From positions 1 to 64,000 of the forward strand of contig JADHWK010000003.1 of the NCBI GenBank assembly GCA_016783505.1: a stretch of DNA of 64,000 bases. The letters are read 5' to 3'. The position numbers and the translations under genes were made by a program. This DNA comes from Candidatus Zhuqueibacterota bacterium (GTDB lineage: Bacteria; BS750m-G25). Position 1 is the first letter of the stretch; every line of letters starts with the position of its first letter. Below the pieces are notes generated by a model. It saw nothing but the letters and a program-made list of their open reading frames with translations, was not told the origin of the DNA and ran no database searches. Shown here piece after piece: positions 48,304 through 51,763 of this stretch.

Positions 48304-48430
48304 TCCAGAGGAGGGATCCTTCAAAAGCCGGACTTCCACATCGTTCTAGCTCGAACCCCCATCCCGAACCTTCGGGATAACCCGTCTGCCACTCATAAAG
48401 TGAGGCGGGCAGGCAGCCACCCGCTAAATT
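48304..48430 (-). repeat. tRNA-Asn-derived remnant R1 with three inserted elements
   Basis: Aligned with the intact tRNA gene (50844-50915), this stretch keeps CTCC(a)GAGGAGGGA, CGAACCCCC, AAC and AGCCACCCGCT. These are split by three insertions: a ~35-bp element (TCCTTCAAAAGCCGGACTTC...), the family A palindrome at 48361-48378, and a family C element (CCGTCTGCC ... GGCGGGCAGG, ~48382-48414). It cannot form a tRNA. It marks the left edge of the AT-rich island. Confidence 0.75.
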
Positions 48431-48523
48431 AAACTACGCAGGAAGTCTCGTCCCCCATGAGATTTAAGTTCCCTCTCACGCCGCAATGCTGCGCATGGGG
48501 ATTTACCTTCTTTTTTGTAAAAT

Positions 48524-50278
48524 TTATCTATTCTTCCAATATCCCGCATTTACTTCTTCATAAGCTATTCTCTTTTTGTTAATCCAACCTATAAATATTG
48601 AACGATTGCCTTCAAATCTACCTGCAAATCTGGTAGTTGAAATTAAATAACATTTTTTAATAGTACGAGCAAGTGCAACAATCAATTGACATATCTCGAT
48701 ATCAGAAGGATTTTTATTACTTCTAGGTAAATTCCCTTCATTTAAACCAACTATAAATACATAACCTGCAGAAAGTCCTTTACAACCCACATATGTAGTT
48801 AAAGCTACTGATATATAATCGAGAGAAAAACTTTCCCCCCCATCTCTCTTTTCACCATCTTCATCTTTACTAAATTCTGCCTTTAAATCCTCAAGTTTAA
48901 CTCTAAAAAAATCCTCTAATATCTCTCTTTCCTCTCGATTAAGTTCCATATCATTTTTCAATTTTTCAAAAATCCCCAGATTGACTTCGTGTTTCTTAAT
49001 ATAACTTTTTGGTAAATAATCGTATAATCGTTTCTCACCATCTTTGAGTGTCTTCTTCAACAAGTTTCCAATATTTTTAATGGGATCGTGTTCTAATAAT
49101 ATCCTCCAACCTAGATTTGAAAATTTGTCTTCATCTAACAATATCTTATAGCCATCATTAATTGAAATCTTTTTTTGTTCTATCTCTATCTTTCTAAAAT
49201 GTAGAATGTATTTTTCATCTCGTTTCAAATAAGAATTTATCTGTTTCAGATATTGCTTAGGACCGGTTATCAAAACCGTATAATCGCCTTTACTATTTGA
49301 TTCTTTAATTTCATCTAAAGTTAGCTTATCAATTTCCTGCTCGATAAATTTGGCTACATAAGGAGCATTTTTTTGTTGAACACTACAGTAAGCGTGAATA
49401 ATTTTAGGATATTTTTTACTATCCTGTAATTTCTCTGGTAAATAGCAGATATACTCTTTATTAACTCGGTTCATAAGTTTTCCTATTTGTTTGGCTTTAT
49501 TAATAACATCATCTATAGCTTTAATCATCACATAAGGACATCTACTACAAAAGGGTAACATAAATCTTTTGTATTTAGGGTCTTTGAATTTTTCTCTTAT
49601 ATATTGGGGTGAAGCATATTTCAATCGAGTATAAAGTGCTTGGTCATCGTCTCCAACAATTAAAATAGGACTTTTTGTTTCTAAAATATTTATAAACTCA
49701 ACTTCCAATTTGTTAAAATCCTGATACTCATCAACTACAATCTGGTCGTATTTTGGAACTTCATCTGGTTTTTCTCTAAAATACTCAAGTACTCTAAAAA
49801 CGGAATCGTCAAAAGATACAGCATTATAGTAGTTAGAACGTCTCAAAAAGAAAGAAATATTTTTGCTTTCATAATCAAGCTGTTTAAAACTACGACTAAA
49901 ATTTGGGTCTTTATTATAACTTATTCGAGCATCTGATTTTATAATTAACTCTAATTTGGGAAAGAGAATGAAATCATCATCGATACCTTCATGATTAATC
50001 TTATGCAATAATTCTTTACAAAAGCTATGAAATGTACGTGACTTTGCTATATCTTTTAAATCTTTTTTTAATTTTTCTGCTAAATTATTAATAAAAGTCA
50101 AGGCGAGATAATTCCCTTGTTTTCTCTTCAATAATTCATAAAAGGTATATGTTTTCCCTGTACCAGGACCAGAAACGATAACTTTCTTGGGACACGTAGA
50201 CTCAAGTATTCTTCTAGTAAATTTATTTCTTTCTTCCTCTTGTTTTTTGAGATATGACCTTAATTCTTCTTCATTCAT
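48524..50278 (-). CDS. UvrD/Rep-like superfamily 1 helicase
   Basis: This 584-residue helicase has Walker A SGPGTGKTYT (~35-44), motif Ia LALTFINNLAEKL, SRTFHSFCKELL, Walker B IVVDEYQDF (~185-193), motif III LIVGDDDQALY, and C-terminal motifs TTYVGCKGLSAGYVFIVGLNEGNLP and LIVALARTIKKCYLIST. A Cys pair (CSRCPY) lies in the middle. It is AT-rich compared with its neighbours and lies within the tRNA-remnant-bounded island, which suggests transfer. UvrD-like proteins of this size occur in defence loci, but no nuclease partner is visible here, so a defence role is only a possibility. A broken XRE gene precedes it. Confidence 0.9.
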   Translation of the reverse strand: MNEEELRSYLKKQEEERNKFTRRILESTCPKKVIVSGPGTGKTYTFYELLKRKQGNYLALTFINNLAEKLKKDLKDIAKSRTFHSFCKELLHKINHEGIDDDFILFPKLELIIKSDARISYNKDPNFSRSFKQLDYESKNISFFLRRSNYYNAVSFDDSVFRVLEYFREKPDEVPKYDQIVVDEYQDFNKLEVEFINILETKSPILIVGDDDQALYTRLKYASPQYIREKFKDPKYKRFMLPFCSRCPYVMIKAIDDVINKAKQIGKLMNRVNKEYICYLPEKLQDSKKYPKIIHAYCSVQQKNAPYVAKFIEQEIDKLTLDEIKESNSKGDYTVLITGPKQYLKQINSYLKRDEKYILHFRKIEIEQKKISINDGYKILLDEDKFSNLGWRILLEHDPIKNIGNLLKKTLKDGEKRLYDYLPKSYIKKHEVNLGIFEKLKNDMELNREEREILEDFFRVKLEDLKAEFSKDEDGEKRDGGESFSLDYISVALTTYVGCKGLSAGYVFIVGLNEGNLPRSNKNPSDIEICQLIVALARTIKKCYLISTTRFAGRFEGNRSIFIGWINKKRIAYEEVNAGYWKNR

Positions 50279-50289
50279 CTCTCTAATCT

Positions 50290-50465
50290 TCTATTACAGG
50301 GTCATCAATTGAAATTCCTAAAGCCTTAGCTGCTTTAATCAAAGTAGAAACTCTCGGGTCTTTTATGCCGCCTGTTGCTAGTTTAATGATGGTATTGTAT
50401 GAGATATCCGCCTTTCAAGCCAAAGCTTCTTGAGTCAATCCAATTTTTTTGCTTTTTGCTATAAA
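50290..50465 (-). pseudogene. XRE-family regulator with an in-frame stop
   Basis: The minus strand reads AKSKKIGLTQEALA, TGA, KADISYNTIIKLATGGIKDPRVSTLIKAAKALGISIDDPVIED and a stop at about 50290. This is a clear Cro/CI-type helix-turn-helix, with the TGA where an Arg (CGA) codon would fit and no start codon upstream. TGA is a normal stop elsewhere in the window (ftsZ and others), so this is a pseudogene. It ends a few bases before the helicase ATG and was probably its regulator. Confidence 0.75.
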
Positions 50466-50494
50466 AAAAGGGGCTTAAATCCCTTTTCTATTAA

Positions 50495-50553
50495 GCTCCG
50501 GAGGAGGGACTCGAACCCCCATCCCGAACCTTCGGGATAACAGCCACCCGCTT
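50495..50553 (-). repeat. tRNA-Asn-derived remnant R2
   Basis: GCTCCGGAGGAGGGACTCGA and ACCCCC match the 3' half of the tRNA gene. A family A palindrome (50521-50538) replaces the segment covering the anticodon-stem 3' strand and variable loop, and AACAGCCACCCGCT then resumes the match. It ends at the stop codon of the GIY-YIG gene. Confidence 0.8.
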
Positions 50554-50833
50554 AAGTCTGAATATGATACTCTCCGGAAATCAACTTCTTAATGAACCCC
50601 TTACTCTTCTGGAATTTTACAAACCGTTCCGCCCTTTGAGCAGAAATACGATCAGAAAATTCCAAAGTGAAAATCAGTTTCCAAGGGCGTCCTCGCTTAG
50701 TCCATCCCTTTTGACTGGTATTATGATATAAAAGTCTCTCTTCCGGGTCACGAGATATACCAGTGTAGTATTTTTCCAGTTTATCAGAATAAAGAATGTA
50801 TAAATAACAGGGATCTCGATTAGAGTATTGCAT
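50552..50833 (-). CDS. GIY-YIG nuclease-domain protein
   Basis: This 93-residue protein of the YhbQ/UvrC-N type has the two hallmark motifs in YLYILYSDKLEKYYTGIS, then RLLYHNT, and GWTKRGRPWKLIF with the conserved Arg, ending in LKFxK-like KFQKSKGF. Similar small proteins are common in candidate phyla and have unclear roles, possibly in DNA repair. It sits 10 bp downstream of the tRNA-Asn gene, and its stop lies at the edge of remnant R2, so it is embedded in the tRNA-repeat cluster. Whether it takes part in repeat movement is unknown. Confidence 0.92.
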   Translation of the reverse strand: MQYSNRDPCYLYILYSDKLEKYYTGISRDPEERLLYHNTSQKGWTKRGRPWKLIFTLEFSDRISAQRAERFVKFQKSKGFIKKLISGEYHIQT

Positions 50834-50843
50834 AAATTAAAAG

Positions 50844-50915
50844 CTCCGGAGGAGGGACTTGAACCCCCAACCTAGTGGTTAACAGCCACCCGCTCTCCCA
50901 TTGAGCTACTCCGGA
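50844..50915 (-). tRNA. tRNA-Asn (anticodon GTT)
   Basis: All arms fold: acceptor TCCGGAG/CTCCGGA, D-stem GCTC/GAGC, anticodon stem GGTGG/CCACT around CTGTTAA (anticodon GTT), and T-arm GGGGG-TTCAAGT-CCCTC, with discriminator G. CCA is not encoded. It is 72 nt long and apparently functional. It is the parent of the four nearby remnants. Confidence 0.95.
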
Positions 50916-50984
50916 ACAGAACATCAAAAATCACTTGAACATAAAATCCAAAATTCTATCCTAAAATCCGTAGTAACAAAAAAA

Positions 50985-51055
50985 TGGACTCGAACCCCCA
51001 TCCCGAATCTTCGGGATAACAGCCACCCGTCCCGATCCTTCGGGACTACTCCGGA
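50985..51055 (-). repeat. tRNA-Asn-derived remnant R3 with two palindromes
   Basis: GGACTCGAACCCCC, AACAGCCACCCG and CTACTCCGGA match the tRNA gene, but two arms are replaced by palindromes. ATCCCGAATCTTCGGGAT (51000-51017) takes the place of the anticodon 3' strand and variable loop. GTCCCGATCCTTCGGGAC (51029-51046) takes the place of the D-arm. Confidence 0.85.
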
Positions 51056-51180
51056 TTTTTTACAACAAACTATTATTTCTACCCCCATCCCGAAACTTCA
51101 GAATCAGGTACAGATGGGTCTTAGGTTTTCTATTATACTGTTATTGCCAGTTTTAGTTAGTTCATTTAAAATTTACCGAC

Positions 51181-51381
51181 TTATCCTGCTGCAACTTGTT
51201 GGTATGAGAAATTAAGAATATTGGCGCGTTGCTTGGCGTGTTCGATTGTCATACTAACCAAGTTTCCATCTTTATCAAGTTCGACTAGAATATTTTCGTT
51301 TAGATCTCGAGTGTCGACAATTTCCTTATCAGTAAAATTGACAAGAACAGTGTCCGTATCCTGAAAATATTTGATTTCCAT
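51181..51381 (-). CDS. DUF2283-family small protein
   Basis: This 66-residue protein, MEIKYFQDTDTVLVNFTDKEIVDTRDLNENILVELDKDGNLVSMTIEHA, matches the DUF2283 pattern of small beta-rich proteins. The start overlaps the stop of the preceding gene as TAATG. DUF2283 genes are often paired with a small toxin-like or DUF4258-like gene, as here, so a toxin-antitoxin function has been suspected but is not shown. Confidence 0.85.
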   Translation of the reverse strand: MEIKYFQDTDTVLVNFTDKEIVDTRDLNENILVELDKDGNLVSMTIEHAKQRANILNFSYQQVAAG

Positions 51382-51623
51382 TAGATGTCCTCCTTAAAAG
51401 AACTGTCAAAGAAAGCATTGTGAATAGTTTCCCCATCTTCCAACAGAATAATACGAAGATATTTGTCATTAGCTTCTGAAATTTTTGCCCATCTTTTGAT
51501 CCGACCATCAGATTGAATCTCTTCTTTAACAGGATTGTTATAGATATACTCAATCCATTCCATTTTTATATCTCTCCTATCGTTACGTTGTAGAGTGTAA
51601 AGAAAGTATTGAGTAAATTTCAT
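51381..51623 (-). CDS. DUF4258-like small protein paired with DUF2283
   Basis: This 80-residue protein begins MKFTQYFLYTLQRNDRRDIKMEWIEY and continues EEIQSDGRIKRWAKI and YLRIILLEDGETIHNAFFDSSFKED. The N-terminal part fits the family pattern, so the first ATG (51623) is preferred over Met21. The sequence resembles the small DUF4258-type proteins that often precede DUF2283 genes. It is translationally coupled to the 51181-51381 gene. The pair may be a toxin-antitoxin module, but function is unknown. Confidence 0.75.
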   Translation of the reverse strand: MKFTQYFLYTLQRNDRRDIKMEWIEYIYNNPVKEEIQSDGRIKRWAKISEANDKYLRIILLEDGETIHNAFFDSSFKEDI

Positions 51624-51652
51624 TTTCAGTAAACCTATAACATTTCTGTTTC

Positions 51653-51763
51653 GGGGAGGAATCCGTCAAGAGCCGGACTCACACTTCGTTCTAGCTCGAA
51701 CCCCCATCCCGAACCTTCGGGATAACAGTCACCCGTCCCGATCCTTCGGGACTACTCCGGAAT
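51653..51763 (-). repeat. tRNA-Asn-derived remnant R4 with two palindromes and the 35-bp element
   Basis: GAGGAATCCGTCAAGAGCCG begins a copy of the ~35-bp element also found in R1. CGAACCCCC, the palindrome ATCCCGAACCTTCGGGAT (51706-51723), AACAGTCACCC, the second palindrome (51735-51752) and CTACTCCGG then follow as in R3. It abuts the fumarase gene and forms the right edge of the island. Confidence 0.85.

Follow-up and report, generated by a model that had tools for sequence, protein, structure and literature searches.

Broken tRNA-Asn copies with hairpins in place of arms, possibly left by cassettes carrying a small GIY-YIG nuclease

What could leave an intact tRNA-Asn gene among four damaged copies of itself, each with a perfect palindrome in place of part of the molecule? 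The question arises in 64,000 nucleotides of Candidatus Zhuqueibacterota bacterium (assembly GCA_016783505.1, contig JADHWK010000003.1, positions 1 to 64,000), referred to here as the window. An earlier note had described four remnants (R1 to R4) lying in the same orientation around the intact gene and sharing blocks of tRNA sequence, and all of this is borne out (Table 1); the limits it gave were also right, save that R1 extends through a degenerate 5′ part to 48444 and does not end at 48430. What it overlooked is the gene for a GIY-YIG nuclease between the intact tRNA-Asn and R2. We suggest, with a probability of about 0.62, that R1 to R4 are broken tRNA-Asn copies left by cassettes that carry a UPF0213/Slx1-like GIY-YIG nuclease and target folded tRNA genes.

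Table 1. Features of the tRNA-Asn region (window coordinates).
Feature	Position	Strand	Remarks
R1, near-complete degenerate tRNA-Asn copy	48304..48444	-	family-C hairpin inserted in anticodon loop; TCCCGAACCTTCGGGA 3′ of anticodon loop; 35-nt insert in T loop
R1 palindrome TCCCGAACCTTCGGGA	48362..48377		
UvrD/GajB-like helicase gene, 584 aa	48524..50278	-	between R2 and R1
R2, tRNA-Asn 3′ half, from end of D stem to 3′ end	50495..50553	-	TCCCGAACCTTCGGGA at 50522-50537
GIY-YIG nuclease gene, 93 aa, UPF0213/Slx1-like	50552..50833	-	stop codon against R2
Intact tRNA-Asn(gtt)	50843/50844-50915	-	
R3, tRNA-Asn 5′ part	50985..51055	-	cut off in T arm
R3 palindromes	51030-51045; 51001-51016		D arm replaced by TCCCGATCCTTCGGGA; anticodon 3′ strand replaced by TCCCGAATCTTCGGGA
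Small fragment	51081..51104	-	degenerate palindrome and TGGGGGT
DUF2283 gene, 66 aa	51181..51381	-	between R4 and R3
80-aa ORF	51381..51623	-	one-base overlap with DUF2283 gene; no Pfam match
R4, near-complete tRNA-Asn copy	51653..51763	-	hairpin insert in T loop
R4 palindromes	51736-51751; 51707-51722		D arm replaced by TCCCGATCCTTCGGGA; anticodon 3′ strand replaced by TCCCGAACCTTCGGGA

Read along the minus strand, the order is R4, the 80-aa ORF and DUF2283 gene, R3, the intact tRNA-Asn and nuclease genes, R2, the helicase gene and R1. The palindrome described over the anticodon-stem 3′ strand and variable loop is present in all four remnants, where it replaces the 10 nt 3′ of the anticodon loop; R3 and R4 have lost the 13-nt D arm to a palindrome as well, and both of the D-arm palindromes that had been reported were located. 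Also present, as claimed, are a second kind of palindrome (family C) in R1 and an element of ∼35 bp common to R1 and R4; the two share a T-loop insert, which in R4 also folds as a hairpin. The abundance of palindromes in the window is beyond chance, with 24 matches at up to two mismatches against 0.42 expected. R3 and R2, which flank the tRNA-Asn and nuclease genes, both carry CGGGTGGCTGTTA-hairpin-TGGGGGTTCGAGTCC, and when rejoined in silico they fold into a hairpin-armed cloverleaf; they are better read as halves of one broken copy than as two of four independent units, as had been supposed. A nested reading in which R1 was a bare 3′ half was given up on account of its degenerate 5′ part. 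The UvrD/GajB-like helicase gene may be either cargo or a bystander; it was the sole match when PADLOC was run on the region, and we do not argue for a defence system. Upstream of it, at 50281-50480 on the minus strand of the window, a helix-turn-helix-like frame contains an in-frame TGA and, read by eye, appears to be broken.

The 93-aa protein has a GIY-YIG domain (Pfam PF01541, E 5.7e-14) and a structure model with a pLDDT of 91.5, and it retains Y12, Y23, G25, R33 and E69, which are invariant across 61 sequences. Its nearest solved relatives, by sequence and by fold, are UPF0213 and Slx1, with I-TevI a weak match. Four small GIY-YIG genes are found in this genome, and every one of them adjoins a tRNA gene (Asn, Asp, Pro or Ala) with a damaged copy nearby. 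The hairpin TCCCGA-N4-TCGGGA occurs in three of the four damaged sets: the tRNA-Asp copies have TCCCGATGGTTCGGGA at the same place as in the tRNA-Asn copies, and in the tRNA-Pro copies the palindrome replaces the T arm. The tRNA-Ala copy, which stops within the T loop, has its anticodon arm replaced by another hairpin, GTCCGACGTTGGCAGTCGGAC (GTCCGAC..GTCGGAC). Copies of tRNA-Glu and tRNA-Val that have no nuclease beside them likewise have hairpins for anticodon arms.

The behaviour is not confined to the one genome, and the same pattern proved to occur at loci of other bacteria. When the four small GIY-YIG proteins were used as queries against comparison genomes, all from outside the source's phylum, the scan gave 79 loci from many phyla. 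Viral contigs yielded six loci. Where full flanks were available, a tRNA lay within 400 bp at 37 of 65 loci, with a further tRNA copy at 24. Alignment of the copies showed that a perfect hairpin exactly replaces a tRNA arm, mostly the anticodon arm, at about 20 loci in several phyla (a script counted 24 loci with two-sided hairpin arms, among which L124 and L277 were judged false on inspection). Examples include tRNA-Lys (L160), Pro (L158 and L282), Ala (L302), Val (L172), Gly (L272) and Tyr (L274), and at a tRNA-Met locus (L288) the hairpin is at the same tRNA position as in the window. In a Poribacteria chromosome assembled as a single contig of 5.16 Mb (L102), an intact tRNA-Pro is accompanied by 11 tandem 107-bp copies in which the anticodon arm is TTCCGATAGATCGGAA; tandem multiplication was also found at L100, L139 and L340. 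The isolate Sediminibacterium goheungense (L108) has the same pattern. Because the pattern recurs in this one-contig chromosome and in an isolate, misassembly of repeats, which the earlier note had raised against its own reading, is unlikely, and on the same two cases we set aside both misassembly and plain tandem duplication as explanations. Across nuclease loci, tRNA isotype tracks the nuclease tree more than chance would have it, requiring 42 changes (shuffled mean 49.8, minimum 44).

Three further observations concern tRNA genes at scanned loci. At L086 (740-880) a tRNA-Sec-like gene has a long-arm stem, TCCCGA/TCGGGA, as in the palindrome. The variable arm of an apparently intact tRNA-Leu at L277 (1363-1449), in the palindrome-rich genome G104, is TCCCGATTACTCGGGA. 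Two different broken tRNAs, at L089 (∼760-840) and L085 (∼780-890), have in common a stretch resembling AGCTAYAAAAACRGGGTCAATTCTCCCA, which may be an integrase scar.

A sample drawn from random bacterial genomes without regard to tRNAs contained 68 small GIY-YIG genes, of which 22 had a same-strand tRNA within 300 bp, with only 4 tRNAs elsewhere in the loci of that sample; about two thirds of the small GIY-YIG genes in this unbiased set have no tRNA nearby, which counts against the cassette reading. Hairpins flank 22 of 127 GIY-YIG genes on both sides, as against 3 of 154 control ORFs, and the two flanking hairpins resemble each other (likeness 10.8 vs 6.2 when shuffled, the largest shuffle reaching 8.0). 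Five small GIY-YIG genes without a tRNA (L313, L317, L319, L328 and L337) have inverted dRS3-like hairpins of the ATTCCYG..CRGGAAT type ∼30-110 bp to either side.

At four loci (L172, L104, L144 and L047) the upstream and downstream acceptor strands, in pieces picked by eye, pair with each other at 7/7 positions counting G-U, and they pair poorly with the intact tRNA, apart from one cross-pairing at L104 that also reaches 7/7 with G-U. Since the halves pair mutually and poorly with the intact gene, the latter is at these loci a replacement, and the pieces do not derive from it. The intact tRNA-Asn of the window has an acceptor stem identical to that of the broken copies, so that a foreign origin of the gene finds no support there.

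Taking the anatomy, its recurrence, the hairpins standing for arms and the fold of the nuclease together, we infer a cassette that would work as follows. The unit would consist of a small UPF0213/Slx1-like GIY-YIG gene and an intact tRNA with the same isotype as its target, and its landing site would be one of the arms of a tRNA gene, in most cases that of the anticodon. The former gene would be left in two pieces or otherwise disabled, a perfect hairpin taking the place of the lost arm, and the cell would be kept alive by the intact tRNA that came with the unit. In the window, R3 and R2 would be the halves of one copy around the tRNA-Asn and nuclease genes, and R4 and R1 further hairpin-armed copies. 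The nuclease may cut folded (hairpin) DNA, the cut may drive both the insertion and the exchange of hairpins, and the units may have multiplied through recombination between copies, by analogy with what SegB promotes in phage T6. A broader proposal, which we put forward only tentatively and against the odds, is that these loci represent a new class of mobile element, in which a minimal structure-specific GIY-YIG nuclease recognises folded DNA, swaps hairpins and lands in tRNA genes with a replacement tRNA, the solo 16-bp palindromes being its non-autonomous form.

Another account gives the palindrome a life of its own: it would spread alone by replacing small inverted repeats and would gather in dead tRNA copies, neutral and hairpin-rich as these are, with the GIY-YIG gene explaining only the extra tRNA copies (compare dRS3, the Rickettsia palindromic elements and the mitochondrial hairpin elements). 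We consider this unlikely, if worth serious attention, and several observations suit it. The palindrome has 226 sites in this genome and is mostly outside ORFs: in a 431-kb sample that is 81% coding, only 12 of 79 palindromes were inside ORFs. When places with the palindrome were set beside paralogous places that lack it, 16 of the 29 replaced segments, not all of them independent, were themselves inverted repeats, as against 6% for shifted controls. The proposal in the earlier note that short elements landed at tRNA arms and then multiplied holds for the exact arm positions, the several kinds of element and the multiplied units, and falls short in that the palindrome is not specific to tRNAs and also replaces inverted repeats in other repeats. 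Large numbers of palindromes are rare elsewhere: of 115 genomes two had many, with 77 and 42 sites, and the one with 42 (G147) had no small GIY-YIG match; hairpin-armed tRNA-Ala copies at L340 in genome G102 have no GIY-YIG gene within 1.5 kb. Hairpins and nuclease can accordingly occur apart, and given these two cases a strict tie of the palindrome to the nuclease is unsupported. What speaks against this account is that all 12 copies of the Poribacteria hairpin TTCCGANNNNTCGGAA in its genome lie within the tRNA array, and that hairpins vary from locus to locus yet agree between the two flanks of a given nuclease gene.

The palindrome is not a single-site word such as an uptake sequence, in that its two inverted halves lie at a constant distance (a 4-nt loop at 79 of 84 sites in the 431-kb sample, loops of up to 10 nt being counted); half-sites also occur outside palindromes. 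A pattern search of 386 genomes for hairpin-armed tRNAs, blind to the nuclease, returned four sites, two of them ordinary tRNA-Val genes and two true hairpin-armed tRNA-Ala copies. At L340 and L343, tandem tRNA-Ala copies have hairpins for both the D and the anticodon arms and no GIY-YIG gene within 1.5 kb.

It is improbable that the hairpin-armed copies act as RNAs, whether as tRNA-like processing sites or as insulators that prevent the broken halves and the intact tRNA from base-pairing when they share a transcript. A hairpin often replaces a hairpin, so that the rejoined copy keeps its cloverleaf (-42.7 kcal/mol, against -28.6 for the tRNA), and the fold of R4 beats its shuffles (z -2.6, DNA parameters); the folds of R1 and R2, however, are no better than shuffles, the Asn, Asp and Met copies lose only the anticodon-stem 3′ strand, which breaks the native arm, and the palindrome occurs outside tRNAs too. 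More improbable still are remnants of integrase elements or of group I introns. tRNA genes are classic targets of integration and partial tRNA copies a usual scar, but none of the genes between the units encodes an integrase, attachment sites leave the hairpins that stand for arms unexplained, and the window stretch has no match to an intron family in Rfam, on which ground we rejected a group I intron.

If the cassette reading is right, a tiny mobile unit in several bacterial phyla breaks a tRNA gene, supplies a replacement and leaves a recognisable scar. Puzzling tRNA-like repeats would then be explained, dispersed short palindromes of unexplained spread would have a possible source, and many small UPF0213-type nuclease genes would become selfish elements.

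Among known systems, the Ssn family comprises site-specific single-strand GIY-YIG nucleases linked to repeated short targets, including the NTS/dRS3 repeats of Neisseria, and its hallmark would be that cognate repeats flank the nuclease gene. The loci described here likewise place a small GIY-YIG nuclease near repeats, and several are bounded by dRS3-like ATTCC..GGAAT hairpins; a minority of the GIY-YIG genes have similar hairpins on either flank, which may be their cognate targets. We know of no tRNA genes, broken tRNA halves or arm replacement described for Ssn and NTS. REP/RAYT systems also have dispersed short palindromes, and Y1 transposase genes exist in this genome, but none lies within the R1-R4 region. 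The Rickettsia palindromic elements and the mitochondrial repetitive or double hairpin elements are dispersed short palindromes, sometimes found inside RNA genes (PMC2800124). They are described as insertions, whereas the 16-bp palindrome takes the place of sequence already present, in many cases an inverted repeat, and in the tRNA cases a nuclease gene is linked to it.

In the open-licence literature we came across no account of hairpins standing in for tRNA arms, which is weak evidence for novelty, and no link of GIY-YIG proteins to dRS3 or to dispersed palindromes. Free-standing GIY-YIG homing endonucleases at tRNA genes are already known in T-even phages (PMC13096335, PMC2988022), and one of these phage enzymes, SegB, cleaves within tRNA genes and causes tRNA segments to be amplified in tandem in phage T6 (PMC13096335). 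With these enzymes the loci share a small GIY-YIG gene among tRNA genes, as well as the catalytic domain and conserved residues of a free-standing homing endonuclease. The nuclease gene has tRNA halves to either side, where its recognition site may lie. In contrast to the T-even phage enzymes, the protein here is nearest to UPF0213 and Slx1, and its gene is found in bacterial chromosomes, where hairpins have taken the place of tRNA arms and a replacement tRNA stands beside the broken one.
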